From positions 1 through 45,155 of the IMG/VR virus record IMGVR_UViG_3300024999_000175: 45,155 bases of DNA. One strand, written 5' to 3'. The notes below the pieces were generated by a model, which worked only from the letters and a program-made list of their open reading frames with translations, searched no databases and was not told the DNA's origin. Position numbers and translations under genes: made by a program. Positions 2,604 through 16,196 of this stretch are shown in pieces (the stretch's first letter is position 1; each line of letters starts with the position of its first letter). The stretch is from a virus.

Positions 2604-3410
2604 ATGAGCTCGGAAGAAGCTGTACACTGTGCGTGTGGTACAGAAAAAAAATCATATCAAGTTATCTGCAATGATTGCGCGGCAAAAGAAAGCTACACCA
2701 CTAGAAATGTAAAATGGAAAAAGTTCTTTTCTGAAATAAAGCAATTTAATCAACATTACAAACTAATATATTCTAGTATGTACCCTGAAGAGGTGATAGG
2801 TGTGCTCAGAGAAAACCCATTTGATGAGACATATGTAAAAATATATAGACAGATTATGTATGGTATTACACACAGTAATGGTAGTAGTACACTAAATAAG
2901 TACGCTCTAAGAATATCTACTAATTCACGGAAATGTGAAGCTGCTAGATTAAAGAAGGATTTTGATGCGAAAGATATAGCTAAAACACTACATAAAAAAT
3001 GCGATGATATGCTAGCAAAAATGTCGGATGACATAACAGCAGAATATAATAGGGCGCGCGAAAAAGGAGAAAAAATAAAAAATATAAAAAATGAGTTCCG
3101 GAATATAAAAAATTATAAAGATAATGATAGTAAGTTTGTTAGTTTCAAGAACACAAGAATAACGCTGTCAGAAGAAAAGAAAATGCTAGAAAACGGTATA
3201 CTAGAAATTACTCCATATAATACAATTAATATAAATACAGTTACTCGTAAGTTTAGTTTAAAACAAATTAAGGGTATGGTAGATATACTATATAATAAAT
3301 TTGAGAATGTCAGAGACAAAAAAGATTTTGAATTTAACATTGGCACAAGTTTTGATATAGAGGGTATTAAAGAGGTAGTAGAAGTTGTGGAAACTATTTT
3401 AGAAAAATAA
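2604..3410 (+). CDS. Zinc-finger hypothetical protein, copy 2 of a tandem pair
   Basis: A 268-residue paralogue of the protein encoded just upstream. It keeps the CACG/CNDC finger (about residues 9-25), the NVKWKKFFSEIKQFNQHYKL segment, LRENPFDETYVKIYRQ and the charged helix LKKDFDAKDIAKTLHKKC. An extra loop of about 15 residues follows the NPFD segment, and the C-terminal domain has drifted. The AGGAGGG ribosome site (2591-2597) sits 6 bases before the ATG. The two copies probably arose by tandem duplication and the helix has been held constant since, at the DNA level too. Function unknown. Confidence 0.75.
   Translation: MSSEEAVHCACGTEKKSYQVICNDCAAKESYTTRNVKWKKFFSEIKQFNQHYKLIYSSMYPEEVIGVLRENPFDETYVKIYRQIMYGITHSNGSSTLNKYALRISTNSRKCEAARLKKDFDAKDIAKTLHKKCDDMLAKMSDDITAEYNRAREKGEKIKNIKNEFRNIKNYKDNDSKFVSFKNTRITLSEEKKMLENGILEITPYNTININTVTRKFSLKQIKGMVDILYNKFENVRDKKDFEFNIGTSFDIEGIKEVVEVVETILEK
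2950..2992 (+). repeat. 43-bp exact direct repeat, copy 2 (partner 2137-2179)
   Basis: Identical to 2137-2179. It marks the most conserved segment of the duplicated gene pair and could be a recombination or gene-conversion tract. Confidence 0.9.
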
Positions 3411-3445: not shown

Positions 3446-4681
3446 ATGCACAGACACGCAATAAATAGTGAAAGATTAAACAAAGAAATTAGTAGATTGA
3501 TTGACCCTGTAAAAAACAAGACCAATACAGAAACCGAAGTGAAGCCACCACAGCCTCTAAATAGATCAATAGATAAAACATACAATATGTACACCTGGTC
3601 CTCTCATAGCAGAGCTACATTTTTAATTAATGCTTATGTAATACAGAACTATGTTAAATCAATTGCTGGAGAAGTATTGTCCTACAATGTAGAGGCTACA
3701 CAGGAATTTGAATATGACTATAAGAAGCAAGATATAATTAATGTTCACGGTCAGCAGGTATTTAATTATGAAAATAAATTGTATGTAATAGACATTAACA
3801 GCAACTGTGGTACAGTTACAATAAATAGTAACAACGATATATCTGAGATTATAGAAAAAATAAAATATGAAATAAAGTATAATAATCCAATAAGAAATAA
3901 ACATATTCAAATAACTAATGGTAGTGATAGCGTCAATTATATATTTAAAAATCCGCCGTCAACTACATTTGATGATATAATAATGGATGAAAAAATTAAG
4001 GAGGACATATATGATAATACTATATTTCATTTAGAAAATCTAAATGATAATAATGGAATAATATTTTATGGAAATCCTGGTGTGGGTAAATCTGCAATAT
4101 GTCAAGCTATAATTAATAAAGCATTAGAAAAGAAATATTCTACTTGTTTTGTTATATCACAAGTATATTATACAGCATTGTCAGAATTTATAAATAACTT
4201 CCTTGCACCATGTATATTAATATTTGAGGATATAGATTCCTTTGGGCAAAGCAGAGATGTAGTACGGGATCATGGTGGAGGCTTAGCTGATTTCCTACAA
4301 TTTATGTCAGGACTATATGAAAGAGATGATGCAATAATTGTAATAGCCACTACCAATTATATTGAACATTTAGACTCTGCTATCGCAAATAGACCTTGTA
4401 GATTTAATAGAAAGTATGAATTTAAATTACCCACTAATGATGAGATAAATAAAATGATTGATATGTTCTTTGGTAGTGATATTGTAGATTATGATCTTAA
4501 AAAATTATGTCATAACAAAAAACTAACAGGATCACATATCAAAGAAATACAAAGGACTTCTATGTTATTATCTAAGAAAAGACAAAAAGAAATTTTAGAT
4601 GTATTTGAAGATTCTGTTAACATAGTATTAAATAACTTTAGTGTAGCAGGAGAGGCTAGTAGTGTGGGGTTTGGGAAATGA
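3446..4681 (+). CDS. AAA+ ATPase (Cdc48/Bcs1-like fold)
   Basis: A 411-residue protein with a C-terminal AAA+ module. Walker A is GNPGVGKS (residues 209-216), Walker B is ILIFEDIDS (257-265), sensor 1 is ATTN (301-304), and RPCRFNRKYEF (316-326) carries likely arginine fingers, as in the classical AAA clade (Cdc48, FtsH, Bcs1). The first 190 or so residues form a family-specific alpha/beta domain with no transmembrane segment. AAA proteins of this type remodel proteins or complexes using ATP. The target here is unknown; its location among small zinc proteins and DNA/RNA ligases suggests replication or takeover functions. AAAGGAGC (3433-3440) precedes the ATG. It overlaps the next gene by 4 bases (ATGA), implying coupled translation. 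Confidence 0.88.
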   Translation: MHRHAINSERLNKEISRLIDPVKNKTNTETEVKPPQPLNRSIDKTYNMYTWSSHSRATFLINAYVIQNYVKSIAGEVLSYNVEATQEFEYDYKKQDIINVHGQQVFNYENKLYVIDINSNCGTVTINSNNDISEIIEKIKYEIKYNNPIRNKHIQITNGSDSVNYIFKNPPSTTFDDIIMDEKIKEDIYDNTIFHLENLNDNNGIIFYGNPGVGKSAICQAIINKALEKKYSTCFVISQVYYTALSEFINNFLAPCILIFEDIDSFGQSRDVVRDHGGGLADFLQFMSGLYERDDAIIVIATTNYIEHLDSAIANRPCRFNRKYEFKLPTNDEINKMIDMFFGSDIVDYDLKKLCHNKKLTGSHIKEIQRTSMLLSKKRQKEILDVFEDSVNIVLNNFSVAGEASSVGFGK

Positions 4682-4956
4682 TACCCTCTTATGTGTCAAT
4701 CTGTAGAGGATGTACACATGCAGTATACTGCGCTACAAACAAATATATTGATACCAAGAACAAATCTAGTTTACAAATAAAACTACTGTGTAGGGTGAAA
4801 AAATCTGATAAAGGGGTGATCCGAGTAGAAACTAGACAACCAACTAAAGAACCCAGATTATATAATTCATTACAAGACATGATAGAGAATTGTGAAGAAC
4901 TAACATTAGAAGATACATTAATGTGGACTAAATTTATAAAGGAGAATAAAATATGA
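4678..4956 (+). CDS. Small cysteine protein with C-terminal LTLEDTLMWTK module
   Basis: A 92-residue protein. The N-terminus has CRGCTHAVYC and a further cysteine near residue 38, a plausible zinc site. The C-terminus (about residues 62-92) has LQDMIENCEELTLEDTLMWTK, which resembles the last 30 residues of five other small proteins in this window (8780-9382, 9363-9695, 11043-11264, 11267-11494, 12808-13164). The shared order, CxxC-type N-terminus then LxLEDAIxxTK helix, suggests one phage-specific family. It overlaps both neighbours by 4 bases, so translation is coupled to the AAA+ ATPase and the DNA ligase. Function unknown. Confidence 0.7.
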   Translation: MIPSYVSICRGCTHAVYCATNKYIDTKNKSSLQIKLLCRVKKSDKGVIRVETRQPTKEPRLYNSLQDMIENCEELTLEDTLMWTKFIKENKI

Positions 4957-6083
4957 AAAAATTTCCTACACTTTTTAAACTCACATCCACTAATGCCATA
5001 CAATATTGGAAAATATCTGTTGAAGAGTTCATATGTAACTATGGTAAAATCATCACAGAGTATGGCCAACTGAGGACGGATAAGCCTCAGATAACTACTG
5101 ATATTATTTCTGTAGGAAAGAATAATGGTAAAACTAATGAGACTACACCATATGAACAGGCTATTAAAGAAGCAGAAGCAACATGGAATAAAAAATTAAA
5201 AAGTGGTTATGTAAAATCAGAAGAAGAAGCTACTAGTGGAAAAGTAGATAGCATAGTAGAAGGTGGTGTACTTCCTATGCTAGCCTTTACATTCGAGAAG
5301 CAAGGGAGTAAAATTAAGTACCCATGCTTCTCTCAGCCCAAACTTGATGGATTAAGAATTATCTGTATTTTAAAGGATGGTAAGGCTACTCTGTGGAGCC
5401 GCACCAGGAAACAGATTTTCTCACTTCCACATGTCATTGCTGAGATAGAAAGAAATTTTAAAGAAGATATTATACTAGACGGTGAGGGCTACTCCGATAA
5501 ATTAAGTAATAATTTTGAACACATAGTTCATTTAGTTAAGCAAGAAGAGCCGGATAAAGATTGTACAGAAATATCTTATCATGTCTATGACGTAGTTAAT
5601 AAAGATACATTTGAGAATAGATATAAAAGTTTACTTAAACATTTTGAGAATACTTCTAAATTTAAATATCTAAAATTAGTAGAAACATTTATAGTAGACA
5701 ATGAGGAACAAGTAACAGACTTCTACACTAAATTTAAAGCAGAAGGAAAAGAAGGAGCAATGCTGCGTAATGCTAAAGGCCTCTATGTAAACAAACGTTC
5801 TTCGGACTTAATAAAGGTGAAAGAAATGCAGGACTCCGAATTTAAAATTGTGGGGATAGAGGAGGGCAGAGGAAAGCTCGCAGGGCATGTTGGGGCTTTT
5901 GTTTGTGCTATAGGAAATGAAATATTCAAAACTAAGATGTCGGGGGGTACTGCTAAGTTAAAAGAGTATTTTGAAAATCATAGCTTATGGAAAGACAAGC
6001 TGCTTACGGTGCAATTTCAAGATTACACATCTTATGGCATACCAAGATTCCCAATCGGTTTGCGTATTAGGGAAGATGTATGA
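4953..6083 (+). CDS. ATP-dependent DNA ligase with N-terminal WGR-like domain
   Basis: This enzyme seals 3'-OH/5'-phosphate nicks in DNA using ATP. The adenylation lysine is K130 in motif I (SQPKLDGLR). Further nucleotidyltransferase motifs are LDGEG (about 175-179, motif III), EGAMLR (about 271-276, motif IV) and LIKVKEM (about 288-294, motif V), and an OB-fold domain ends in FPIGLRIRED. The first 90 residues match the WGR-like module known from some phage ligases (TEYGQL; GKNNGKTNETTPYEQA), which probably binds DNA. AAGGAG at 4938-4943 sits 9 bases before the ATG. It overlaps the upstream gene and the downstream GIY-YIG gene by 4 bases each. It is a replication/repair enzyme, distinct from the two RNA ligases further right. 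Confidence 0.93.
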   Translation: MKKFPTLFKLTSTNAIQYWKISVEEFICNYGKIITEYGQLRTDKPQITTDIISVGKNNGKTNETTPYEQAIKEAEATWNKKLKSGYVKSEEEATSGKVDSIVEGGVLPMLAFTFEKQGSKIKYPCFSQPKLDGLRIICILKDGKATLWSRTRKQIFSLPHVIAEIERNFKEDIILDGEGYSDKLSNNFEHIVHLVKQEEPDKDCTEISYHVYDVVNKDTFENRYKSLLKHFENTSKFKYLKLVETFIVDNEEQVTDFYTKFKAEGKEGAMLRNAKGLYVNKRSSDLIKVKEMQDSEFKIVGIEEGRGKLAGHVGAFVCAIGNEIFKTKMSGGTAKLKEYFENHSLWKDKLLTVQFQDYTSYGIPRFPIGLRIREDV

Positions 6084-6715
6084 TAGTATATAAAATTGTT
6101 AATTGTGTGAATGGTGATTTTTATATAGGTAAAACTACCAAAAAACTTTCCCACAGAATTCAAAGACATTTCTCTAACAGTAGTGGGTGTGTTAAATTTA
6201 AAGCAGCCGTAGCCAAATATGGAAAAGAAAATTTTTTAGTAGAAATATTAGTAGTATGTTCTTCCGTAGAGGAACTAAATAATACTGAGATTAGATTGAT
6301 TAGAGAATTAAAACCAGTCTATAATATAACCTGTGGTGGAGATGGTGGGGCTACTAGGATTGGTTATAAGCACCGAGAAGACGCTAAACAAAAAATTTCT
6401 AAGGCCTTAACGGGTGGCAATCACCCGATGTATGGAAAAAAGCATAGCAAAGAATCTATCTCTAAAATTTCAGTAAAATTAAAAGGAAACAAAAATCATA
6501 AACTAGGTAAAGAATTTTGGTTAAAATATAGAGATAAAATAATTAAAGGCTCATATAAACCTTTAATAGATAAAATTACAGGAAAACAATATGCTTCACC
6601 TAAAGAATATTCAGAGGCAACTGGTTACTCTATGAGTTATTTATACTGCATCCTATCTGGGCACAAGAAAAGTAAAAAATTAAATATTGAATATTTATTA
6701 AAAGGAGGTGGTTAA
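6080..6715 (+). CDS. GIY-YIG homing endonuclease with NUMOD3 repeats
   Basis: A 211-residue free-standing homing endonuclease. The GIY-YIG nuclease domain spans residues 1-90: VYKIVN...FYIGKT (GIY as VYK and YIG intact), a catalytic arginine in SHRIQRH, and a glutamate in NNTEIRLI. The DNA-binding part contains NUMOD3-type motifs, KISKALTGGNHPMYGKKHS (about 108-126) and ISVKLKGNKNHKLGKEF (about 131-147), then a helix-turn-helix-like C-terminus. It begins inside the ligase stop codon (ATGA). The ligase is intact, so this gene is inserted next to it and is not in an intron. Its likely target is an allele of a neighbouring gene in a competing phage. Confidence 0.9.
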   Translation: MIVYKIVNCVNGDFYIGKTTKKLSHRIQRHFSNSSGCVKFKAAVAKYGKENFLVEILVVCSSVEELNNTEIRLIRELKPVYNITCGGDGGATRIGYKHREDAKQKISKALTGGNHPMYGKKHSKESISKISVKLKGNKNHKLGKEFWLKYRDKIIKGSYKPLIDKITGKQYASPKEYSEATGYSMSYLYCILSGHKKSKKLNIEYLLKGGG

Positions 6716-6716
6716 A

Positions 6717-7046
6717 ATGGAAATACCTATAACAATTTTTGTGGTAATTGGAATAGTAGTTCTGTGTACGTTTGGGATAGTAAATATCGTAGACTATGAT
6801 TACTATAAGAAAGGGATAATAAAATTCATATGTGCATTGCTACTTCTTGGTGTAATAATAGGAGTGCATCATCATAGACAAATATTGATTCAGACCAGCC
6901 CCAAATATATATCATCAATATCAATAGCCAATTCTAATGATCAAATTTATATAGTTTCTATTACTACTGAAGTTCCTTATTATACAGACCCCATAGAGAT
7001 TTTGTATACTACAAGGCTGCCTAAATTGGGGGAACAAATAAATTAA
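6717..7046 (+). CDS. Small membrane protein
   Basis: A 109-residue protein with two predicted membrane helices near the N-terminus (about residues 4-24 and 35-51) and a mostly polar C-terminal half of about 55 residues with several short beta strands (YISSISIANS, IYIVSITTEV). The ATG at 6717 follows an AAAGGAGGTGG ribosome site (6700-6710), which beats the GTG at 6708. The HHH cluster just after the second helix is unusual. There is no cleavable signal peptide. It may act in the host inner membrane, for instance in exclusion or envelope modification, but no family is recognisable. Confidence 0.65.
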   Translation: MEIPITIFVVIGIVVLCTFGIVNIVDYDYYKKGIIKFICALLLLGVIIGVHHHRQILIQTSPKYISSISIANSNDQIYIVSITTEVPYYTDPIEILYTTRLPKLGEQIN

Positions 7047-7056
7047 AGGGGGGGAA

Positions 7057-8415
7057 ATGTTTCTATCAATAAAAACTAAAGGGACAAATGCTGATAAGTT
7101 ATCTTACGCACTAATGAAGCACCCAGCTAAAATATTTACTAAAGATAATCTTACATGTTTCTTTCCTAAATATTTACAAGATGAATGTGAAGTAGTAATA
7201 TCTTGCAAGTTTCCAGAATACAAACTATGGAAAGAATCTAATGCATATGATATAGACGGCTACGTAACAGATCGGGAGTATGCATTGTCCTCCTTATTTT
7301 TAAAAGAATTGAAGATCTCATTCAATACAGCAATTAACAACAGCTATGCAGAAGACATTATAGAATATAAAGATATAGTTTTTAATTTTGAAATAAAATT
7401 ATTACCTTTTACCACGTCGTTACCAACAGATATAATAGAACAGTTATTTACTGGTTGTGGCTATACTGGTGTGGTGGTTACACAGCTATCAGAAGATATA
7501 GAGTATCTGCGGAATAAATTTAAAGTATATTCTATAGAATATAAATCTATAGGAACCATCTCAGATTTGTTTAGTAAGCTGATGATACTGATTCCTACTG
7601 TAGATAACTACATTCATTTCAATCCAGATGCTGAACTGTTATCAAACCAGTTTGAAAAACATGGGCAGGGCTGGGTGAAGAAGCATCCACTACAGACATT
7701 GATACTAAATAGATTTATGAGGTATAAAAAGAAGTTAGTAGAAAAGTACTTTGCCAATACTACAGAGAACCAGGAAACAGAAACTTCCTTAGAAGAAAAA
7801 GTAAACTTAGAAGAAAAAGTAAACTTAGGAGAACACAGACTGAGGTGGATAGAAGAACAGATAAAAAATCTTAACGTAACTTCAGTGGTTGATTGTGGCT
7901 GTGGGAGCGGAAGATTATTAGAAAGACTAAGTCCTAATAAAAATTTAGAATTATATGGAGTAGATTGTAATCCAACGTCAATAATACATGCTAAGAGACA
8001 TAATAGAAAACTACAGGATAACATATGGTTTAGTTCTTTACTATATAAAGATGAAAAATTATTAAACAAAGATTGCTTTGTGCTGCAAGAGGTTATCGAG
8101 CATATGGAAGAATTTCAATTAAGTAAAAGTATAGATAATATATTTGGTTATTATAAGCCTAAATACGTTCTTATAACTACACCTAATACGTTATATAATA
8201 GTATCTTCGGGATTACTGGGCTGCGGCATAAAGATCATAAGTTTGAGTTTACAGATACAGAGGTGACTAACTGGGCTTTCGGTGTACAAGATAAATATAA
8301 ACAATATCAAGTACTAGAAGTACCCTCCCCTATAGGAGAAGGTAAAGAAGTAACACAAAAAGGAGTCTTAGATTATCCTACGTTTGGAGTTGTGCTTAAG
8401 AGGAGGGCGGTATGA
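7057..8415 (+). CDS. hen1: Hen1 3'-terminal RNA ribose 2'-O-methyltransferase (bacterial type)
   Basis: Bacterial Hen1 methylates the 2'-OH of the 3' end at an RNA break before Pnkp reseals it, so the junction resists re-cleavage. The 452 residues show both domains. The N-terminal Hen1_L domain (1-230) has HPAKIF, YVTDREYALSSLFL, LFTGCGY and ILIPTVDNYIHF. The methyltransferase has motif I VVDCGCGSGRLLERL (277-291), VDCNP (302-306), the metal-binding EVIEHME (345-351; E345, E348, H349), TTPNTLYN (374-381) and RHKDHKFEFT (390-399) with the second metal histidine. All expected ligands are present. A doubled 18-bp unit (7789-7824) lies in the linker. Pnkp parts are encoded at 9673 and 13637. It is followed by a 4-base ATGA overlap with a micro-ORF. 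Confidence 0.92.
   Translation: MFLSIKTKGTNADKLSYALMKHPAKIFTKDNLTCFFPKYLQDECEVVISCKFPEYKLWKESNAYDIDGYVTDREYALSSLFLKELKISFNTAINNSYAEDIIEYKDIVFNFEIKLLPFTTSLPTDIIEQLFTGCGYTGVVVTQLSEDIEYLRNKFKVYSIEYKSIGTISDLFSKLMILIPTVDNYIHFNPDAELLSNQFEKHGQGWVKKHPLQTLILNRFMRYKKKLVEKYFANTTENQETETSLEEKVNLEEKVNLGEHRLRWIEEQIKNLNVTSVVDCGCGSGRLLERLSPNKNLELYGVDCNPTSIIHAKRHNRKLQDNIWFSSLLYKDEKLLNKDCFVLQEVIEHMEEFQLSKSIDNIFGYYKPKYVLITTPNTLYNSIFGITGLRHKDHKFEFTDTEVTNWAFGVQDKYKQYQVLEVPSPIGEGKEVTQKGVLDYPTFGVVLKRRAV
7789..7824 (+). repeat. 18-bp perfect tandem duplication in the Hen1 interdomain linker
   Basis: The unit ttagaagaaaaagtaaac occurs twice in tandem (7789-7806 and 7807-7824) and encodes LEEKVN LEEKVN between the N-terminal domain and the methyltransferase domain. 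It keeps the frame and lengthens a charged linker by six residues. It looks like replication slippage. Confidence 0.9.
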
Positions 8416-8480
8416 AAGTAGTATTAAATGTTTGTGACAGCTATAGTGTAAATTGTCCTAAGTGCTTTCCGAGGTGTTAA
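8412..8480 (+). CDS. 22-residue cysteine-rich micro-ORF
   Basis: A micro-ORF starting in the Hen1 stop codon (ATGA at 8412-8415). The product has four cysteines and ends NCPKCFPRC, a CxxC...C pattern that could hold a metal ion. An AGGAGGGCGG ribosome site (8401-8410) lies just before the ATG. A start-coupled position and a strong site argue that it is translated. Its small size leaves real doubt, and it could also simply be a coupling leader for the next gene. Confidence 0.45.
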   Translation: MKVVLNVCDSYSVNCPKCFPRC

Positions 8481-8483
8481 CAT

Positions 8484-8744
8484 ATGGAACATGTGATTAG
8501 AAATTTTGATAAGGATATGCATGTGTCAAGAGTAACTGTGAAAAACGATTCTACTAGTAGGATTTTTGTATTAGTAATGGAGAATATTAAAATACTCGAT
8601 ACAGCCATTAGTAGTTTACAAAACTTTAGGTACGAATTTAATCAACAATTAATAGTCAAAGCTAATGCCGCACTAAAAGCAAACCACCCATTTAGTATAG
8701 ATAGAGACACAGAAGTTGCCGAAGAAAGAAATCGAGAGGGCTAA
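8484..8744 (+). CDS. Hypothetical protein
   Basis: An 86-residue protein of unknown function. The N-terminal half is probably two short strands (VSRVTVKND, RIFVLVME) and the centre is a helix (DTAISSLQNFRYEFNQQLIVKANAALKA in two pieces). The C-terminus is acidic and charged. A CCGAGG site (8470-8475) is 8 bases before the ATG. It is co-oriented between the Hen1 micro-ORF and the chimeric XRE gene. No family recognised. Confidence 0.6.
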   Translation: MEHVIRNFDKDMHVSRVTVKNDSTSRIFVLVMENIKILDTAISSLQNFRYEFNQQLIVKANAALKANHPFSIDRDTEVAEERNREG

Positions 8745-8779
8745 AGAACTGAGAATTGCCTTCTATCAGGAGAAATGAA

Positions 8780-9382
8780 ATGACAAATAAAACTGCCGCA
8801 GAATGGATGAAAGAAAAAATAGCAAAATATGAAGACTCCTTTGATTTCAAGCACGAAGAGTTGGTATTGGGTATCACCGAACAGATATGCAACGCGATGG
8901 AGGAAAAGGGTATCGACAGGGCGGAGCTGGCTGACAAACTGGGCGTATCTCGCGCTTTTATTTCCAAATTGCTGAACGGGACGCCTAATCTGACCACCGA
9001 GACGTTGCTGAAGATAACACTTGCATTGGGCCGGGAACTAAGCGTAAAGCTGCCTCCAGCCGGTTTTACAACAGCCCATCAGAGTTACACAACTATATCT
9101 AGTCTAGCCAGTAGGCTGGATTCTGCCCCATGTGGGTGGACTAATTGTAACAAAGAACTATGTACAATATTTAAAACAAATGAATTAGCAAGCGATGAAT
9201 GGAAAATGTTACCTCCATGTAAATCTACAGTAGATAATAAATTTATGCTATATGAATTTGGAAGGAGTTATGAAATAGATATCAATGATAACTTAAGTAT
9301 GTTATTATTTCAGATGAAAAATCTTAGCTTAGAAGATGCAATCACAATTACAAAGGTGAAAAATGAAATGGGAAACTTGTAA
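8780..9382 (+). CDS. Chimeric protein: XRE/antitoxin-like HTH fused to phage LEDAI-family domain
   Basis: A 200-residue protein made of two parts. Residues 1-95 resemble bacterial XRE antitoxin-like regulators: WMKEKIAKYEDSFDFKHEEL, then a helix-turn-helix IDRAELADKLGVSRAFISKL (about 47-66), NGTPNLTTETLLKITLALG and LSVKLPP. Residues 105-200 match the window's small cysteine-protein family: WTNCNKELC, a second cysteine, and the end LSLEDAITITKVKNEMG. DNA for the HTH part (about 8870-9065) is GC-rich and uses codons such as CTG, GGC and GCG, unlike the AT-rich flanks, a clear sign of recent capture from a bacterium. AGGAGA (8768-8773) supports the ATG at 8780. It may repress host promoters or mimic an antitoxin; that is inference. 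Confidence 0.82.
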   Translation: MTNKTAAEWMKEKIAKYEDSFDFKHEELVLGITEQICNAMEEKGIDRAELADKLGVSRAFISKLLNGTPNLTTETLLKITLALGRELSVKLPPAGFTTAHQSYTTISSLASRLDSAPCGWTNCNKELCTIFKTNELASDEWKMLPPCKSTVDNKFMLYEFGRSYEIDINDNLSMLLFQMKNLSLEDAITITKVKNEMGNL

Positions 9383-9695
9383 AAAATGTCCTAAATATTT
9401 ATGTGATGAGTATAAAGATAAGACCAAAGATATTAACAGTCCTACTTGGCTTATTTGGATAACTAACATCTTAGTATTCCCGAAATGTGAATGGGGTGTT
9501 ATGGCAAACAAATTTAGACTATATTTAAAAACAGCTGACGCACTTCGTTATGTCCCGCATAAAAATTTTGATACATTAAAAGAATGTATTGATTACATAG
9601 ACAAAAAATTTAAGAAAGAATTAGATTTTGAAAGTGCGCTACAGTTAACTAAAATTAAACAGGGGATAAAGAATGCTAATAAAAATACCAAATAA
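9363..9695 (+). CDS. Small cysteine protein of the LEDAI family
   Basis: A 110-residue member of the window's paralogous small-protein family. The N-terminus MKWETCKKCPKYLC gives a CxxC...C site, with another cysteine in FPKCEWG (about residue 42). A FRLYLK strand follows, and the C-terminus has LDFESALQLTKIKQ, the equivalent of LSLEDAITITKVK in the neighbour upstream. It overlaps the upstream XRE fusion gene by 20 bases and the Pnkp gene by 23 bases, so expression is tightly linked to the RNA-repair genes. No known family. Confidence 0.68.
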   Translation: MKWETCKKCPKYLCDEYKDKTKDINSPTWLIWITNILVFPKCEWGVMANKFRLYLKTADALRYVPHKNFDTLKECIDYIDKKFKKELDFESALQLTKIKQGIKNANKNTK

Positions 9696-11046
9696 TTCTT
9701 TAATAGCAATGGTAGGTATTTCTGGTAGCGGTAAAGACTACTTTGCTAATAAATATTTTAAATCTGTAAGAAATATTAATGCAATAGTATCATCAGATAA
9801 GTGTAGAATAATGTTACATACAGAATATAATAATCTCACACAACAAGAATTACAAAAATTTAACGATGGCGCTTTCACTATTTTCCACGCAATGATAGAA
9901 GCTAAGTTAAAGCATAATCAACTTACAGTAGCTAATGCTACTAATCTTAGCCCTGAGTCTAGACACAAACTAGAGGAAATAGCTAAGGCTAGTCATGTTC
10001 CTATATATTATATAGTAATGAATACTCCACTAGAAACTTGTATTGAAAGAGACAATCTTAGGGATGAGTTTGCTAAAGTAGGGGAAAGCGTGGTCAAAAA
10101 ACACGCAACAAGATTTAAGTCTGCATATTCTTTCCTCGAAAAACAAAATAATGTTTTCATAGTAAACCCAGAAGATGAAATTACTGTAGAATTATTAGAT
10201 ACAAATAATATAATTAATATAGACCACGGAATAGACATAATAGGAGATGTTCATGGAACGTTCTCAGAGCTTAATGAATTACTCGGTAAGTTAGGGTACA
10301 TAATAGGTGGGCAAAAAATATGGCACCCTAGTGGGCGTAAGATAGTATTTGTTGGGGACATTGCAGATCGTGGCCCGGATAATTGGCGGTGTTTAGAACT
10401 GGCTAGACATATGATGGAAAATAACACCGGATGGTGGGTCATGAGCAATCATGATAATAAACTTATGAGATGGCTATCAGGAAGAAAAGTTAGGATAGCG
10501 GACGGCCTACAGAAAACAATAGATCAAATTCCGGAAGAAGCTAAAGAATCTTTAAGAGAGTTTATGTATAAGAATTTAAAATCTTATTATCATTTTAAGC
10601 ATACTAATGGAGAAGAGATAGTAGTAACTCATGGTGCGTTTAATAAAAAATTTATAGGAAAATATCATAGAGACATATCAGATTATTGTATGTATGGTCC
10701 TACCCAAGGAGAAGATGATAATGGTCACCCAATAAGAATTGATTGGGCGAGGTCCTATACTGGTCCGTTTGTAGTCTTTGGTCATGCGGTATGCGGGGTA
10801 TCCCCCAAAAAGTATAAGAACGCAATCAACATCGACACTGGCGCGGTTTTCGGGGGAATGCTAAGTTCTTATTCTTTTCCTGCGAAAGAAATAGTACAAG
10901 TAAAATCTAAGCAAATTTATGATGGTAGTAAACCTGAGTTGTTTGAGATACAGGAGAATACAGATTTAACAATTCAGGATATGATAAATACTTCTATGAT
11001 AGAAGTAGAAAATCATAGAGGCGAAATTATTAATTTGAGGCTATGA
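9673..11046 (+). CDS. pnkp: Pnkp kinase-phosphatase half (5'-OH kinase plus 2',3'-phosphatase)
   Basis: This is the N-terminal two-thirds of bacterial Pnkp as a separate 457-residue protein. The kinase module has the P-loop GISGSGKD (15-22), SSDKCR (the acid/base aspartate), VANATN and an LRDEF...KKHATRF lid; it phosphorylates 5'-OH RNA ends. The calcineurin-type phosphatase has DIIGDVHGTFSEL (about 188-200), FVGDIADRGPD, SNHDNKL, VVTHGAF, VFGHAV and INIDTGAVFGGML; it removes 2',3'-cyclic or 3' phosphates. Two departures from the usual motifs: Asp replaces the Ser/Thr after the P-loop lysine, and Ser replaces Gly in GNHD/E. The tail (LTIQDMINTSMIEVENHRGE) matches the segment just before the ligase domain in full-length Pnkp, so the break is at a domain linker. 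The ligase half is at 13637. Confidence 0.93.
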   Translation: MLIKIPNNSLIAMVGISGSGKDYFANKYFKSVRNINAIVSSDKCRIMLHTEYNNLTQQELQKFNDGAFTIFHAMIEAKLKHNQLTVANATNLSPESRHKLEEIAKASHVPIYYIVMNTPLETCIERDNLRDEFAKVGESVVKKHATRFKSAYSFLEKQNNVFIVNPEDEITVELLDTNNIINIDHGIDIIGDVHGTFSELNELLGKLGYIIGGQKIWHPSGRKIVFVGDIADRGPDNWRCLELARHMMENNTGWWVMSNHDNKLMRWLSGRKVRIADGLQKTIDQIPEEAKESLREFMYKNLKSYYHFKHTNGEEIVVTHGAFNKKFIGKYHRDISDYCMYGPTQGEDDNGHPIRIDWARSYTGPFVVFGHAVCGVSPKKYKNAINIDTGAVFGGMLSSYSFPAKEIVQVKSKQIYDGSKPELFEIQENTDLTIQDMINTSMIEVENHRGEIINLRL

Positions 11047-11264
11047 TGTGGAAAGCATTTATAGTGCCTGAACTTACGCTAGCGTGGGACACAGTAGCTA
11101 ATAACTATATGTTGTATCTCGTATCTGCACAGTACAGGCAGTTTAATACGTATGAAGATGCAATTTGTTACATCTATAATATGGTGTATAATAATGCCCT
11201 AGAACTATCGTTAGAATCTATGATAAAACTTACTAAGGAATATAATAAATTAAAGGCGGCGTAA
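11043..11264 (+). CDS. Small LEDAI-family protein, duplicated copy A
   Basis: A 73-residue protein starting in the Pnkp stop codon (ATGATG). Its C-terminal half (FNTYEDAICYIYNM ... LELSLESMIKLTKEYNK) is nearly the same as that of the next gene, while the N-terminal 33 residues differ. The LSLESMIKLTK segment is the family module seen in several other small proteins of the window. It lacks the N-terminal cysteine cluster of the longer members. Function unknown. Confidence 0.62.
   Translation: MMWKAFIVPELTLAWDTVANNYMLYLVSAQYRQFNTYEDAICYIYNMVYNNALELSLESMIKLTKEYNKLKAA
11142..11250 (+). repeat. 109-bp imperfect direct repeat, copy A (partner 11381-11489)
   Basis: This aligns without gaps to 11381-11489, 239 bases downstream, including exact runs of 20 bases or more such as aatacgtatgaagatgcaat. 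It is the duplicated 3' half of two consecutive small genes; the upstream halves do not match. Confidence 0.85.
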
Positions 11265-11266
11265 TA

Positions 11267-11494
11267 ATGGGACCATATTTTAATCTACCAGAAGTAGAAA
11301 TAAGCACCGTATGCCCAAACAGCTTCCAGCAGTACTTTAGAGTATGGTACGATAAAGAGACTCATGAGAACCGGAATAAATTCAATACGTATGAAGATGC
11401 AATCTGTTACGTATATAATATGACTCTTAATAATGAACTTGAATTGTCATTAGAATCTATGATAAAACTTACTAGAGAATATAATAAAATATGA
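11267..11494 (+). CDS. Small LEDAI-family protein, duplicated copy B
   Basis: A 75-residue paralogue of the preceding gene. The C-terminal module (FNTYEDAICYVYNM ... LELSLESMIKLTREYNK) is conserved at DNA level, whereas the N-terminus (GPYFNLPEVEIS...CPNSFQQYFRVWY) is different and has one cysteine. This suggests a conserved docking helix carrying a variable head. It overlaps the HNH gene by 4 bases (ATGA). Function unknown. Confidence 0.62.
   Translation: MGPYFNLPEVEISTVCPNSFQQYFRVWYDKETHENRNKFNTYEDAICYVYNMTLNNELELSLESMIKLTREYNKI
11381..11489 (+). repeat. 109-bp imperfect direct repeat, copy B (partner 11142-11250)
   Basis: The second copy of the repeat described at 11142-11250; most differences are single-base changes at third codon positions. 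Confidence 0.85.
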
Positions 11495-11805
11495 GTGCAT
11501 CTATCAGACAAAAAATTAAAGATAATAGTGCTTACAAAAATTGGAAAAACGAATTAAAAATTAGTAACGATACTTGCAGGGAGTGCGGTGCCTATTTACT
11601 CCTCGAAGAAAAACAAGTACACCATATGATAGAATTAAACATGTTAATAAAAAATGCTAAATTAAAGTTTACAAACTTAGGTTTGCGCAATAGAGATTTT
11701 ATTAAAAATGTTATAGTAGATGTATTAAAATATCAGCATGATAATAATATAGGAATAATAGTATGTGATGATTGCCATAACAAACTACATGGGAGGTTGG
11801 GATGA
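11491..11805 (+). CDS. HNH endonuclease
   Basis: A 104-residue HNH nuclease. It has the zinc-binding pair CRECG (about residue 29) and CDDC (about residue 94), the first catalytic histidines in QVHHMIELN (about 46-54), and the closing HNKLHGRLG (about 96-104) with the last HNH histidine. A long helical insert lies between the two halves. It cuts DNA and may be a homing or mobility nuclease. It lies in the block separating the two halves of Pnkp, so it is a candidate for the agent that moved that block. It overlaps both neighbours by 4 bases. Confidence 0.82.
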   Translation: MSASIRQKIKDNSAYKNWKNELKISNDTCRECGAYLLLEEKQVHHMIELNMLIKNAKLKFTNLGLRNRDFIKNVIVDVLKYQHDNNIGIIVCDDCHNKLHGRLG

Positions 11806-12440
11806 GAGAATACCATAAAATTAATACAATATACAAAAGGGATGAGCATACTAAGAAAATACTAGAGGGATATTATTCTATTCCTGAATTTGAATATCTT
11901 AAAAATAACATGTGGTCTTTTAGTGAGAAGCTTGATGGAATGTGCATAAGAACTCTATATGATGGTAATCGTATAACATTTGGTGGGAAGACAGATAATG
12001 CTAGTATCCCCGCCAAATTATTAAATAACCTTAATTCATTCTTTCTTCCATTGGAAAATAAATTCAAAGAAATATTTAGAATAGAAGAAGGCGCTCCATG
12101 CAACATATGTCTGTATGGAGAAGGAATAGGCGCAGGTATCCAATCTGGGGGAGGCTATTCTACTGTTCAAAAGTTTGTTTTATTCGATATTAAAATTGGT
12201 GAGTGGTGGCTTCAGCGTAAAGATGTAGAAAATATTGCTAATAAACTAAACTTAGAAATAGTCCCTATTATAGGAGCAGGAACTTTAGATGATGCAGTAA
12301 CTTTAGCTAAAACTGGTATGCAATCTACATATGGAAATTTTAAAGCAGAGGGAATAGTAGCACGTCCTGTCATAGAACTTTTTACACGCGGAGGCCATCG
12401 TATTATAACTAAAATAAAATGTAGAGATTTTAAATCATGA
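11802..12440 (+). CDS. Stand-alone RNA ligase (Rnl2-like nucleotidyltransferase)
   Basis: A 212-residue ATP-dependent RNA ligase of the short RNA_ligase family common in phages. Motif I is SEKLDGMCIR with the adenylation lysine K43. It is followed by FGGKTDNASIP (motif Ia region), LYGEGIG (about 106-112, motif III), FVLFDIKIG (about 127-135, motif IIIa), AEGIVARP (motif IV) and ITKIKCRDF (motif V). It has no C-terminal accessory domain beyond motif V. The enzyme joins 3'-OH and 5'-phosphate RNA ends, the state that the Pnkp kinase-phosphatase leaves. It is separate from the Pnkp-type ligase at 13637, giving the phage two RNA-sealing enzymes. It overlaps both neighbours by 4 bases. Confidence 0.88.
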   Translation: MREYHKINTIYKRDEHTKKILEGYYSIPEFEYLKNNMWSFSEKLDGMCIRTLYDGNRITFGGKTDNASIPAKLLNNLNSFFLPLENKFKEIFRIEEGAPCNICLYGEGIGAGIQSGGGYSTVQKFVLFDIKIGEWWLQRKDVENIANKLNLEIVPIIGAGTLDDAVTLAKTGMQSTYGNFKAEGIVARPVIELFTRGGHRIITKIKCRDFKS

Positions 12441-12811
12441 AAACCCCTATATTATACTATCTTAACAAAGCAAAAATAGAAAGCAAAAAATCAAATCATT
12501 ACAAAGTTAAGATAGGAGCAATACTTGTGAATAAAGGAAAGGTAGTAAGTACTGGTTTTAATAAACTTAGACACAACAGACATAGACAATACAGTAGATG
12601 GCAAAACTCTGTTCACGCTGAAATAGATTGTTTGTTAAAAGCAGGTAACTCCGCCGGAGGAACTTTATATGTTTATAGAGAAAATAAGAATGGCGAATTG
12701 GCTATATGTAAACCTTGTATATTTTGTCAAATACTTATAAGGGAAAAGAATATTAAAAAAATAATATATACTACCTCTTACTACCCTAATTATGTGGAGG
12801 AATATATATGA
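12437..12811 (+). CDS. Cytidine/deoxycytidylate deaminase family protein
   Basis: A 124-residue zinc-dependent deaminase. The HAE motif (SVHAEIDCLL, about residues 56-65) supplies the zinc histidine and catalytic glutamate, and CKPCIFC (about 93-99) gives the PCxxC zinc pair. The core VKIGAILVNKGKVVSTGFNK is typical of the fold. dCMP deamination to dUMP would fit with the dUTPase at the left edge, since both make dUMP for thymidylate synthesis. It is short for a phage dCMP deaminase and lacks an obvious extra allosteric segment, so a free-nucleoside or RNA-editing role cannot be excluded. ATGA overlaps at both ends. Confidence 0.83.
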   Translation: MKTPILYYLNKAKIESKKSNHYKVKIGAILVNKGKVVSTGFNKLRHNRHRQYSRWQNSVHAEIDCLLKAGNSAGGTLYVYRENKNGELAICKPCIFCQILIREKNIKKIIYTTSYYPNYVEEYI

Positions 12812-13164
12812 ATAGTGAATCTTATTTAGAGAAATGGGAAGTTTGCAAAAGGTGCATAAAAGAGATATGTAAAAATGTTCATGACAATACAGATGTGGAC
12901 TATGTTCCTTTAGATAGTGAATTTAGATTTTTAGTTGATGGTGTAAATTTTAATATTGATACGATGTGTATGGCCAGCAGCAGTATTATAGGACATTCTA
13001 TTTCGCCTAGGTTGAGTGGGCCAGTTATTTATGAAAATAAGAGTTTATTATTAATATTTACTTATATATTAAATGATTTTAAGGAATTACAATTAGAAGA
13101 CGCAATTAAAATTACCAACCTAAGAAATAAGCAACTAAAATTTATGGTAGACAAAGGAGAGTAA
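12808..13164 (+). CDS. Small cysteine protein of the LEDAI family
   Basis: A 118-residue family member. The N-terminus KWEVCKRCIKEIC parallels KWETCKKCPKYLC of the protein at 9363. A further cysteine is in DTMCMASSS (about residue 55), and the C-terminus has FKELQLEDAIKITNLRNKQ, the shared module. It overlaps the deaminase gene by 4 bases and is followed directly by the next start codon. Function unknown; the family seems to be specific to this phage group. Confidence 0.68.
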   Translation: MNSESYLEKWEVCKRCIKEICKNVHDNTDVDYVPLDSEFRFLVDGVNFNIDTMCMASSSIIGHSISPRLSGPVIYENKSLLLIFTYILNDFKELQLEDAIKITNLRNKQLKFMVDKGE

Positions 13165-13500
13165 ATGTTAACAGAAAATCTTATGCACAAATGGTACAAT
13201 CTAAAAAGAGAGACTTTACGTACACATAGGTCGCATAGTCCCGCTCTAACATCAGCTTTATCCTCTTTTGGGGTGAATAAAGAATTGACAGAGTACGAGA
13301 GTATACATAAGCTAAATTTTATTACAATAGAAAATAAATGGGATTTTAAATTTGACTGCTGGTTAGACATAGTAGAAAAAAACATTAGTATGTATAAACC
13401 ATCGCAACTGGATACCATAATAAATAATTTCGCTAATAAATTCTATAATGATATTATAAAAGAATTTCCAAAAAAAGAGTTGATATTAAATGAAGAATAA
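13165..13500 (+). CDS. Hypothetical protein
   Basis: A 111-residue protein with no recognised family. It is probably mostly helical (LMHKWYNLKRETLRTH at the start; LDTIINNFANKFYNDIIKEF at the end), with a tryptophan-rich centre (NKWDFKFDCWLDI). The ATG directly follows the previous stop and has AAAGGAGAG upstream. The 3' end overlaps the start of the frameshifted small gene at 13490. Confidence 0.62.
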   Translation: MLTENLMHKWYNLKRETLRTHRSHSPALTSALSSFGVNKELTEYESIHKLNFITIENKWDFKFDCWLDIVEKNISMYKPSQLDTIINNFANKFYNDIIKEFPKKELILNEE

Positions 13501-13647
13501 AAAATAAAAATTAGAAATCCACTAGTAGAAGCTGCTAAATTTAGAAACTCGGCTGGAGTTATGGATAGTAAATATGATAAGCAGAACCGTAATAAATTAA
13601 AAGGAAAACTTAGACAAGAAGTAAAGGAGCTTACTAATGAAAATTGA
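13490..13647 (+). pseudogene. Small conserved basic phage protein, interrupted by a -1 shift in an A6 run
   Basis: ATG at 13490 starts a short frame that stops at 13505. One extra A in the A6 run at 13499-13504, or a ribosomal -1 slip there, joins it to an open frame that runs to the TGA at 13645-13647. The joined product of about 52 residues would read MKNKKIKIRNPLVEAAKFRN and then a basic tail, resembling the small basic NP...A..F..G proteins found in many phages. It may be a sequencing under-call, a real mutation or recoding. The next gene's ribosome site lies inside it. Confidence 0.6.
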
Positions 13648-14728
13648 AATAGTACAAGACATTATAAATAAGCTATCAACAAAAACAATACCACCAAATA
13701 AACTTATATGGTTGTCACCGACAATGTGTCCAGGTCCAGTATCAGACCTCCCTCAATATATGGAGGATCCTATTACTACTGCGGAATGGATGTTTAATAA
13801 TTCAGATGAGCCTAGTACTGAGTTGATTGCTGAAGTAAAGCACATGGGTAGTCGATGTACATTTGCATTTTGGAGGGACGGTGAGTCTGTGGCGTGGTCT
13901 AGAAATGGATTTACTTTTTTTGGTAAAGAATATGAACCATTACTAGATCAAATGAATAAAGATATATTTGAAAAGATAGAGGAGGATTTTATATGTATAG
14001 ATGCGGAAGTACTTCCTTGGAATTTTAAAGCCGCAGGATTAGTAGAAGAAGATTTTTTACTAGCAGGATACAGCGGTCTAGTCACTAAAAAAGAACTAAA
14101 CAACTATCTAAATGATGCTAACTTAAATAATGATATCAGCAATTTAAAAGACTATATCGAAGTGATTAAAAGATATTGTTGGGATGTTAACATAGATAAT
14201 ATTAGAATAGCTCCATTCTTTATATTAGCTATAGGAAATAGAATGGGCAAAAATGTATATAAAACTCATAAAGAACACCTGGTAGCTTTGGGCAGTATTT
14301 TTGAAAACAAAAATTATTATCAATACGTATTTTCAGAAGTTATTAGTAAAGATCAACTTGACATATTAAATTCTTTATGGTATACTATTACAGATAAATT
14401 TAAATATGAAGGATTCGTATTGAAATATAATAATGTACATCAATACTCTAACACAAAATATCCACAGCAACAACTAAAAGTACGAAGTAGCGACTACCTC
14501 AAAATAATATATGGAGCTAATTATCAAGAACCTGAAATATTAGAAAAATTAAAACATAATAGAAGACTAGATAGAAAAATGAAAATTGCTTATTATGAGA
14601 CTATACTAAGTGATAATGCTCTTAAAGTTTATCTAAATAATCCCGATAAATTTGAAGCTTATCATAAATTCATAATAGCCTGCATGGCGGTAGACTACGG
14701 TGCAAGAGAAATAGATCCTCGACTATAA
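13637..14728 (+). CDS. pnkp: Pnkp-type RNA ligase (adenylyltransferase) half
   Basis: The C-terminal ligase domain of bacterial Pnkp as a separate 363-residue protein. The start IWLSPTMCPGP corresponds to the LPPTMSP segment opening this domain in full-length Pnkp. Motif I is AEVKHMGSR with adenylation lysine K68, followed by WSRNGFTFF, CIDAEVLPWNFKAAGL (about 135-150), KYEGFVLKY (motif IV), QLKVRSSDYLKIIYG (motif V) and the family's own C-terminal module ending VDYGAREIDPRL. With the kinase-phosphatase at 9673 it would rebuild an 820-residue Pnkp, close to the natural length. In bacteria this ligase module works with Hen1, which is encoded at 7057. AAAGGAG (13623-13629) precedes the ATG. Confidence 0.92.
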   Translation: MKIEIVQDIINKLSTKTIPPNKLIWLSPTMCPGPVSDLPQYMEDPITTAEWMFNNSDEPSTELIAEVKHMGSRCTFAFWRDGESVAWSRNGFTFFGKEYEPLLDQMNKDIFEKIEEDFICIDAEVLPWNFKAAGLVEEDFLLAGYSGLVTKKELNNYLNDANLNNDISNLKDYIEVIKRYCWDVNIDNIRIAPFFILAIGNRMGKNVYKTHKEHLVALGSIFENKNYYQYVFSEVISKDQLDILNSLWYTITDKFKYEGFVLKYNNVHQYSNTKYPQQQLKVRSSDYLKIIYGANYQEPEILEKLKHNRRLDRKMKIAYYETILSDNALKVYLNNPDKFEAYHKFIIACMAVDYGAREIDPRL

Positions 14729-14746
14729 ATTATTAGGGGGGTTTGT

Positions 14747-14968
14747 ATGAATTGGTATACAATAATATTTGAGATGCTAATACTTACTTTAGCATTATTG
14801 GTTGGTATGTACTACGGAATAAAAATAGGAGTTGGTTTGGGTAAACGCTATATGTTGTTAGAATTTACTAAAAATAAAAAACTTATAACTGATTTACTGT
14901 TTGATGACTATATTAAAACAGATAAGGATAGCCTAGTGGAAAAGCTAAAGAAAAGCGGCATACTTTAG
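14747..14968 (+). CDS. Small single-pass membrane protein
   Basis: A 73-residue protein with one N-terminal membrane helix (about residues 5-30, glycine-rich at its end: GMYYGIKIGVGLGK), followed by a charged cytoplasmic tail of about 40 residues. The AGGGGGGT ribosome site (14734-14741) is strong. This shape is common for small phage membrane proteins (spanin-like, holin-like or exclusion proteins), but no specific family can be assigned. Confidence 0.62.
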   Translation: MNWYTIIFEMLILTLALLVGMYYGIKIGVGLGKRYMLLEFTKNKKLITDLLFDDYIKTDKDSLVEKLKKSGIL

Positions 14969-15435: not shown

Positions 15436-15627
15436 TTGACTGAGATCAGAAGATGTAGAAACTGTAAATATTATGTGCCCTATGATAAAGATTCTAGATT
15501 TGCTAAATGCAGTAAAGAATTAAATTCTATGGGTGCTCCTAAATACTATTGTTCTACACAAAGACTTTCCCCAACCTCATGCGGAAAAGAAGGTAAATAT
15601 TGGGAAACTAATAATAGATATTATTAA
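15436..15627 (+). CDS. Small zinc-finger phage protein (CxxC...CG type)
   Basis: A 63-residue protein read from TTG at 15436, supported by AAGGAGA at 15424-15430. Cysteines are placed as RRCRNCKYYVP, AKC, YYC and SCG, followed by KYWE. This matches a small zinc-binding protein type often seen in phages and carried as hypothetical. It is the last rightward gene of the left block; its stop codon overlaps that of the convergent ClpP-like gene (15624-15627). Confidence 0.65.
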   Translation: MTEIRRCRNCKYYVPYDKDSRFAKCSKELNSMGAPKYYCSTQRLSPTSCGKEGKYWETNNRYY

Positions 15628-16196
15628 AGAATATCATCTATTATACCATACTTAAGGGCTTCTTTAGCACTGATATACCAATCTGTCTCCATTTTATTTC
15701 TAAGCTTGTGTTTAGTCATGTTGGTTTTACTAACAAGTAAATCATAGATGCTATCGTCTAGTAATTTTAATCCATGCCCTTGGGCCATAAGATCTTTTCT
15801 TTTAGTTGAAACTTCCCCTTCCATACGAACCAAATGAAGCATGACGTTTGAGTACTTATAAGCGAATCTTTTATGCCCACTAACTAATAGAAAAGCAGCG
15901 GCACTTCCAGCCATACCCATACAGTAAGTATACACAGGGGTTGTAGAAGACAAGATATATGAAATGACAAAAAATGCAGTAGTAATATCCCCACCAGAAG
16001 AATTGATATAAAGGTGAATTGGACTCTTCTTACTATCCTTTTTCATTAGCTCCATATTGTGAAAAATAGTATATATGATATCGTTTGTTACATCACCGTT
16101 GAGTATTATTTTTCTATCCTCAAATAGCTCCACCTGAATTTTGTCTGTACTATACTCTATAGTCTCTTCTGCTACATCTTCTGTATACCCCATCAT
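15624..16196 (-). CDS. ClpP-like serine protease
   Basis: A 190-residue ClpP-family protease with a complete triad: S98 in GMAGSAAAFLL (usual form GQAASMGA), H121 in VMLHL and D172 in METDWYISAKEA. The oxyanion-hole segment INSSGGD (about 64-70) and the C-terminal AKEALKYGIIDDI are typical. Host ClpP degrades proteins with a Clp ATPase; phage homologues often act in head maturation instead, but there are no head genes here. It lies at the far end of the leftward unit with a TPR protein and a secreted protein. An AAGGTGA site precedes the ATG. Whether it joins host ClpP rings or works alone is open. Confidence 0.88.
   Translation of the reverse strand: MMGYTEDVAEETIEYSTDKIQVELFEDRKIILNGDVTNDIIYTIFHNMELMKKDSKKSPIHLYINSSGGDITTAFFVISYILSSTTPVYTYCMGMAGSAAAFLLVSGHKRFAYKYSNVMLHLVRMEGEVSTKRKDLMAQGHGLKLLDDSIYDLLVSKTNMTKHKLRNKMETDWYISAKEALKYGIIDDIL

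Follow-up and report, generated by a model that had tools for sequence, protein, structure and literature searches.

Bacteriophage T4 mends nuclease-cut tRNA with the Pnkp/Rnl1 pair, whose members belong to other phosphatase and ligase families than the enzymes considered here. This pathway has no methylation step, according to the available part of PMC4411300, a study of the Pnkp1-Rnl-Hen1 system of Capnocytophaga gingivalis. In vitro repair of colicin-cut tRNA requires all three C. gingivalis proteins; the repair product made with S-adenosylmethionine (SAM), about half of it methylated, is much more resistant to a second cut by colicin D, and earlier work cited there found that the N-terminal domain of Hen1 activates the Pnkp ligase. 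Outside bacteria, the accessible text of two papers mentions PNKP together with a homologue of Hen1 in Xanthomonas phage XacN1, with a pointer to the bacterial pair (PMC5852040, 2018), and a putative Pnkp1-Rnl-Hen1 complex and gene cluster in Borgs (PMC11208441). Here we describe a Hen1 gene and two genes that together encode the modules of Pnkp in the IMG/VR record IMGVR_UViG_3300024999_000175, a fragment of the genome of a large tailed phage (45,155 bases, below called the window).

The set resembles the canonical bacterial Pnkp/Hen1 system in its Hen1_L and methyltransferase domains, P-loop kinase, calcineurin-type phosphatase and Pnkp ligase with a fold like that of the Hen1-N-bound form. 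It differs in being phage-borne, in having Pnkp as two proteins, in its kinase motifs (GKD with Asn) and in sequence (about 25-39% identity). With the C. gingivalis system it shares the presence of an end-healing enzyme, a ligase and Hen1 as three proteins; however, end healing in C. gingivalis falls to a homologue of T4 Pnkp (as far as the available text of PMC4411300 goes) and its Hen1 is the best match of the phages with Hen1_N (PF22032), whereas the phosphatase of the window is of calcineurin type and its Hen1 belongs to PF12623. Nor is the set of the T4 type, with an Rnl1-family ligase and no methyltransferase: the window ligase falls in PF16542, and Hen1 is present.

Hen1 and a divided Pnkp in a phage genome

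The first-pass annotation of the window had proposed a complete Hen1/Pnkp set on three open reading frames (ORFs), which were found at exactly the positions given there. They share one strand and span 7.7 kb:

7057..8415, + strand: Hen1, with an N-terminal Pnkp-ligase-associating domain (residues 1-231) and an RNA 3'-terminal ribose 2'-O-methyltransferase domain
9673..11046, + strand: N-terminal half of Pnkp, with a P-loop polynucleotide kinase (about residues 1-184) and a calcineurin-type phosphatase (about residues 185-425)
13637..14728, + strand: C-terminal half of Pnkp as a separate gene, an ATP-dependent RNA ligase with motif I KHMGSR

Both domains ascribed to Hen1 were recovered by profile searches. 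Residues 1-231 correspond to Pfam Hen1_L (PF12623, E = 4.8e-27, 95.1 bits against a cut-off of 23) and residues 2-429 match TIGR04074 (E = 2e-69), and Hen1_N (PF22032) is absent from the Pfam listing for this protein at E up to 1. In the PDB, phmmer matched CtHen1-C (3jwg) and Hen1-N (4dqz/4drf, the latter being the Hen1-N chain of the Pnkp-C/Hen1-N heterodimer). The motifs VDCGCGSG, EVIEH and RHKDH start at residues 278, 345 and 390; we take the first to be the SAM motif and the other two to hold the metal ligands. In the alignment with six bacterial Hen1 proteins from plasmids both EVIEH and RHxDH are kept, and the letters invariant across all 27 rows of a wider alignment include E345, E348, H349, R390, H391, D393 and H394. 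Among 80 bacterial rows, 70 columns are at least 95% conserved, and the phage protein keeps 53 of them. The AlphaFold2 model (27 rows) has a predicted local distance difference test score (pLDDT) of 81.4 and a predicted template modelling score (pTM) of 0.52, a value at which the relative packing of the domains is not readable; domain by domain, it resembles bacterial Hen1, namely the methyltransferases 3jwi/3jwh and the Hen1-N chains 4e6n_B and 4drf_B.

The kinase-phosphatase aligns to positions 2-454 of the 851 positions of TIGR04075 (E = 3.1e-99). Its Pfam families are AAA_33 and Metallophos (PF00149), HAD_PNKP being absent from the matches listed at E up to 1, and its sequence matches in the PDB are the kinase 4jst and the phosphatase 4j6o. 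Alignment with five full bacterial Pnkp proteins showed the phosphatase motifs GDVHG, GDIADRG, NHD and GHA, as well as kinase motif SSDxxR. At the same threshold of conservation, 55 of 71 columns are kept (77 bacterial rows). The P-loop reads GISGSGKD and the Walker-B-like motif NATN.

The ligase covers the remainder of the same profile (TIGR04075 positions 473-851, E = 1.7e-45) and matches PF16542 above its cut-off (E = 6.7e-52); phmmer matches in the PDB are 3ty9/4drf, CthPnkp ligase included. Its ATG is preceded by AAAGGAG. Compared with the five full bacterial Pnkp proteins it retains KHMGSR, the acidic letter of DAEVLPW, EGFVLK and KVR, and K68, E124, E258, K263, K281 and R283 are among the letters that do not vary across the 46 aligned rows; 48 of 60 conserved columns are kept (74 rows). 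Here, as for the phosphatase, kinase and Hen1, the catalytic roles of the motif letters are those we presume. The AlphaFold2 model, built from 46 of the 74 ligase rows (pLDDT 89.8, pTM 0.88), has as best PDB matches 4e6n_A (template modelling score, TM, 0.88) and 4drf_A (TM 0.87), that is, Pnkp-C bound to Hen1-N, and weaker ones to free Pnkp ligase (TM 0.74-0.76) and to Rnl of the Capnocytophaga complex (TM 0.68-0.73). The predicted fold is nearest to the Hen1-bound form of Pnkp-C.

By profile (PF12623, TIGR04074, TIGR04075 and PF16542) and, for Hen1 and the ligase, by predicted structure, the proteins fall within the Hen1 and Pnkp families. Family and PDB matches extend over almost the whole of each protein, and the sequence matches to solved structures are much stronger than chance would give. 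Kinase, phosphatase and ligase modules are all present, as first annotated; two refinements are that they are distributed over two separate proteins and that the P-loop and Walker-B letters are unusual.

The two Pnkp genes lie 2.6 kb apart, with seven ORFs between them. A frameshift or an assembly error as the source of the split was ruled out, as each half has its own start, seven ORFs intervene and two contigs agree. To place this arrangement we used a scan of genomes of 84,980 species, which gave at least 543 Hen1 relatives, and examined the best 80 loci. Kinase, phosphatase and ligase are found in one frame around Hen1 at 73 of them, counting L073 and L105, where a second frame holds part of the ligase end, and L111, truncated at the end of its contig. 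The other seven comprise three that reach the sequence end (L076, L085, L104), one with two adjacent overlapping frames (L114), and three with no Pnkp near Hen1 in the stretch (L093, L112, L122). Separate Pnkp genes with other genes between them occur at none of the best 80 of these at least 543 loci, so that the same split layout in bacteria is unsupported.

The highest identity to the rows of the phylogenetic trees is 32% for Hen1, 33% for the ligase and 39% for the kinase-phosphatase. Hen1 and the ligase each fall in a ten-row set in which eight rows are from Bacillota and one is viral (support 95 for Hen1 and 96 for the ligase). This placement is unsafe, as the branches are long and the composition is odd; by path, no comparably close tree neighbour exists for the kinase-phosphatase.

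The phage setting proposed at first reading is supported by a 194,269-base phage contig (G001), which covers the window at positions 126634-171795 with 99.96% identity. PHROGs calls among ten large proteins of this contig include DNA polymerase, UvsX-like recombinase, SbcC-like protein, ribonucleotide reductase, head maturation protease and head closure, and genes for the tail sheath and baseplate are present inside the window itself. That the locus is bacterial passenger DNA or an assembly artefact might be suspected from the window being a fragment and from the abundance of Hen1 relatives in bacteria. This is very improbable, as two contigs, 99.96% identical, place the repair locus between phage replication and tail genes, and identity of the proteins to their nearest bacterial rows reaches only 32-39%.

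Hen1 and Pnkp-type ligases in other phages and viral contigs

The first-pass annotation knew of no description of a phage-encoded Hen1/Pnkp set. Its identification of the parts and of the phage setting is supported, but the idea of an unprecedented find was rejected, since the XacN1 and Borg genes had been published earlier (PMC5852040 and PMC11208441, in the text available). Like the window phage, XacN1 (PMC5852040) has Hen1, a Pnkp-type ligase and a GKD/Asn kinase; its three genes stand in a row (ligase, ORF197; Hen1_N and methyltransferase, ORF198; kinase, ORF199). In contrast to the canonical Hen1 of the window, its Hen1 is of the Capnocytophaga (Hen1_N, PF22032) type by profile search. 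No XacN1 phosphatase was matched by purpose-built hidden Markov models (HMMs) in the two stretches examined. ORF197 (L021 5022-6233), published as PNKP and deposited as metallophosphoesterase, matches profiles of the Pnkp ligase half only.

Among 50,697 phage records, the tblastn search with Hen1 matched only Vibrio phages RYC and vB_VpaM_sm033, and that with the ligase only RYC. Both phages resemble the window in having a Pnkp-type ligase and Hen1, but their genes adjoin: after the ligase gene comes one for a single chain of 717-726 residues, in which Hen1_N (PF22032) and methyltransferase are fused to a kinase and a HAD phosphatase. In RYC this chain matches both Hen1 and Pnkp1 in the structure of the Capnocytophaga complex. 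In the records these fusions (RYC, L002 5158-7308; sm033, L003 4485-6662) are annotated as 'polynucleotide kinase' and the adjoining ligase as 'hypothetical'. Profile searches found PF12623 in G001 and not in RYC, sm033, XacN1 or Agrobacterium phage Atu_ph07; together with PF22032 in the first three of these, this indicates that two Hen1 types are phage-borne, the window representing the canonical one. Atu_ph07 itself (L023 5992-7245) encodes a kinase-phosphatase resembling the first half of Pnkp, with neither Pnkp ligase nor Hen1_L found in the record, and Sinorhizobium phage Phosso gave a similar tblastn match.

Single-protein scans of viral contigs returned only G001, which is the same phage. 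Alignment scans by Hen1 or ligase picked out 28 of 2.9 million viral contigs, with a single entry for the window phage, and in 24 of them a Hen1-type methyltransferase and a Pnkp-type ligase occur in the same stretch; as the contigs were gathered by Hen1 or ligase, this fraction is not a prevalence. Among the 24 are four pairs whose Hen1 sequences are at least 99% alike; with each pair counted as one, 20 contigs remain. The tally was made with purpose-built HMMs (two to seven rows each, window included), and Pfam was used to check six contig and eight named-phage proteins. Both Hen1 motifs, E-x-x-EH and RHxDH, are readable in 20 of the 24 contigs; RHxDH was not found in L136, L139, L140 and L150. 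The contigs that lack the pair carry Hen1 alone (L031), Hen1 and a kinase (L146, a 9-kb piece), the methyltransferase only (L155), or Pnkp without Hen1 (L132, a 6-kb piece). A terminase match was obtained for 12 of the 28 contigs (6 of 11 and 6 of 17), a result that only lends support, since the same search was positive in 11 of 14 cellular controls. L030, with a bacterial-looking Pnkp/Hen1 pair and no terminase match, may be cellular DNA.

The contigs show several gene layouts. Hen1 is accompanied by one-chain kinase-phosphatase-ligase, with the alternative ligase type, in L034, L038, L039 and others, and the RYC-like layout recurs in L150. A Hen1-type methyltransferase and a ligase form one chain in L033 (9992-12427), L133 (8474-11128; L133/L135), L138 (8393-11059) and L136 (8807-11038). 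Pfam identified Hen1_L, methyltransferase and ligase in the fusions of L033 and L138, ligase and methyltransferase in L133, and only the ligase in L136. No kinase or phosphatase was matched in the examined stretch of the five fusion contigs (L033, L133, L135, L136, L138). The viral scan with the kinase-phosphatase produced 15 loci, two of them on contigs already counted; in the stretch of the 13 others neither Hen1 nor ligase was matched, and among these 13 are the stand-alone kinase-phosphatases L157 (41% identity, GKS with Asp) and L158.

In the PMC literature (preprints not covered), no description of the canonical split set or of Hen1-ligase fusions in phages was found. PMC11437452, retrieved as a candidate Hen1 paper, was rejected, as its available text merely names a bacterial strain HEN11. 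In the main text of a review of 224 jumbo phages (PMC7824862), so far as accessible, Hen1 and PNKP have no occurrences, and its section on RNA repair names neither Hen1 nor 2'-O-methylation; from this silence, this branch of counter-defence looks under-recognised.

Two further observations concern viral sequences. When the window ligase was compared by fold with viral models, proteins of Yasminevirus, Terrestrivirus and Hokovirus were among the best matches, under the names metallophosphoesterase or calcineurin-like phosphoesterase; judging from these models, Pnkp-type ligases may occur in giant viruses too. On the L150 contig (G026:C1:23073-24200) the terminase match passes through eight TAG codons, which suggests that this phage reads TAG as an amino acid.

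Possible role of the set during infection

By homology, the chemistry would be as follows. A cut by a metal-independent nuclease would leave 2',3'-cyclic phosphate and 5'-OH ends, both of which the kinase-phosphatase would heal; Hen1 would place a 2'-O-methyl group on the ribose that ends the 5' fragment, and resealing of the RNA would fall to the ligase, activated by the N-terminal domain of Hen1. The methylated junction should then withstand the same cut. The most likely use would be to restore and protect tRNAs cut by the host during infection. We infer enzyme activity, complex formation, the target RNA and the benefit to the phage. Given homology to the C. gingivalis system, the phage set should act likewise, and, cut tRNAs being the known reason for phage RNA repair (PMC7824862, in the part available), tRNA is the probable target in infection. 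A role against host anticodon nucleases is reasonable. We assign a probability of about 0.6 to the proposal, made from sequence, that tRNAs which host nucleases have cut are resealed and 2'-O-methylated by the phage Hen1/split-Pnkp set.

Several observations weigh against this proposal. All three proteins have long end branches in the trees (3.45 for Hen1, 2.79 for the ligase and 1.39 for the kinase-phosphatase). Hen1 scores 234.3 bits with TIGR04074 against an equivalog cut-off of 340, and the two Pnkp halves 333 and 156 bits with TIGR04075 against 750 for the whole, scores below the NCBIfam cut-offs that indicate divergence. Hen1 differs at 17 of the 70 conserved columns, some of them beside RHKDH, and the ligase at 12 of 60, including the Gly column (G284) directly after KVR. 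The Hen1 model says nothing of how its domains are packed, and Pnkp is not a single chain, unlike at 73 of the best 80 (of at least 543) bacterial loci. In the kinase, Ser/Thr of the P-loop is changed to Asp (GKD instead of bacterial GKS/GKT) and the Walker-B Asp of DATN to Asn. Finally, in the viral contig L032 (11269-13920) the ligase (PF16542, 391 bits) and Hen1 are kept, while the P-loop is lost, the second phosphatase motif is altered (NDETGKG), and neither kinase nor phosphatase has a Pfam match at 0.001. The additional loss of a phosphatase motif there lowers confidence in the proposal slightly.

These kinase substitutions could mean that repair is partial, with the kinase or another step inactive and Hen1 and ligase working alone, with host enzymes or with a second ligase, or that Hen1 caps 3' ends like eukaryotic HEN1. 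GKD and NATN in the window kinase, the five Hen1-ligase fusion contigs with no kinase or phosphatase match in the stretch, and L032 are all consistent with it. Nevertheless, comparison of the kinases speaks for another explanation. P-loop Ser/Thr and Walker-B Asp are combined in 75 of 77 bacterial rows, the other two being unreadable, whereas all three distinct phage kinases with GKD (the window, XacN1 at L021 7602-8093, and L038) have Asn in the second motif. The remaining readable phage kinases have Ser/Thr with Asp, although in RYC, sm033 and L150, which are of HAD type, the Asp is found at the next position; these P-loops were read by script and by eye, and those of L032, L132, L139/L140 and L151 were unreadable. 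GKD/Asn may therefore be a paired exchange at the Mg site and not decay, which favours a working kinase, with only three cases to go by. As the window also retains its phosphatase and ligase motif letters, we consider partial repair or capping quite unlikely.

The set may also repair a different substrate, such as mRNA of the phage, or RNA that nucleases of the phage itself or of a rival phage have cut. In the available discussion of PMC4411300, the in vitro substrate range of such complexes is wide and the in vivo substrates are unknown. There is nothing specific against such a substrate; still, we hold it to be unlikely, as among the triggers of RNA repair in phages, damage to the anticodon loop of tRNA is the best described (PMC7824862, in the part available).

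Repair and protection of host-cut tRNAs would set the window phage apart from T4, whose repair adds no mark, so that mended tRNAs remain open to a second cut; a methylating phage would break this cycle. Phage infection would also be a natural damage event in which to seek the in vivo substrate of the bacterial complexes (described in PMC4411300, as far as its text is available). The pattern across large phages is a more interesting result than the single locus. The odds are about even that methyl-marked RNA repair is a recurrent counter-defence of large phages, in which Hen1 and a Pnkp-type ligase have been acquired and rebuilt several times and the mark makes repaired tRNAs immune to host anticodon nucleases, an effect beyond the reach of plain T4-type repair. 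The rebuilt forms would be the split genes, the Hen1-ligase fusions, the fusions of Hen1 with kinase and phosphatase, and the kinases with swapped Mg-site letters.

Genomic surroundings of the locus

The three genes belong to a run of + strand ORFs at 4678-14968, with intergenic gaps of -23 to +136 bases. Other members include:

4953-6083: ATP-dependent DNA ligase gene, shortly upstream of Hen1
6080-6715: GIY-YIG/NUMOD3 homing endonuclease, overlapping the 3' end of the ATP-dependent DNA ligase gene, shortly before Hen1
11491-11805: HNH-like ORF between the Pnkp halves, called by eye
11802-12440, + strand: Rnl2-like RNA ligase domain, 212 residues (PF09414, 55 bits, cut-off 27; phrog_548 RNA ligase, E = 4.7e-22)
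12437-12811: deaminase, between the Pnkp halves

It is uncertain whether the Rnl2-like ligase, also located between the Pnkp halves, belongs to the repair kit. Promoter-like sites in the window number 71, compared with an average of 55.7 (standard deviation 7.7) after shuffling, and terminator-like sites four, compared with 4.1; these counts are not informative.

The opening and closing 30 bases of G001 are identical, and IMG/VR classes it as linear. No phrog_2 (terminase) match was obtained in this contig. It has genes for tRNA-Thr(TGT) and tRNA-Gln(TTG); the window has no tRNA genes. The first 25 kb of the window have no near DNA match among the 50,697 phage records, and the closest relatives of the polymerase and sheath are from Bacillus/Lysinibacillus phages with 23-29% identity, too weak for naming the host.

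Elsewhere in the window, a duplication is suggested by the adjoining ORFs at 1788-2591 and 2604-3410, which in part share 75.8% DNA identity. An ORF in the structural region (28366-28740) has an internal repeat of 91.7%, and the - strand ORF at 15624-16196 resembles, by eye, a ClpP-type serine protease.

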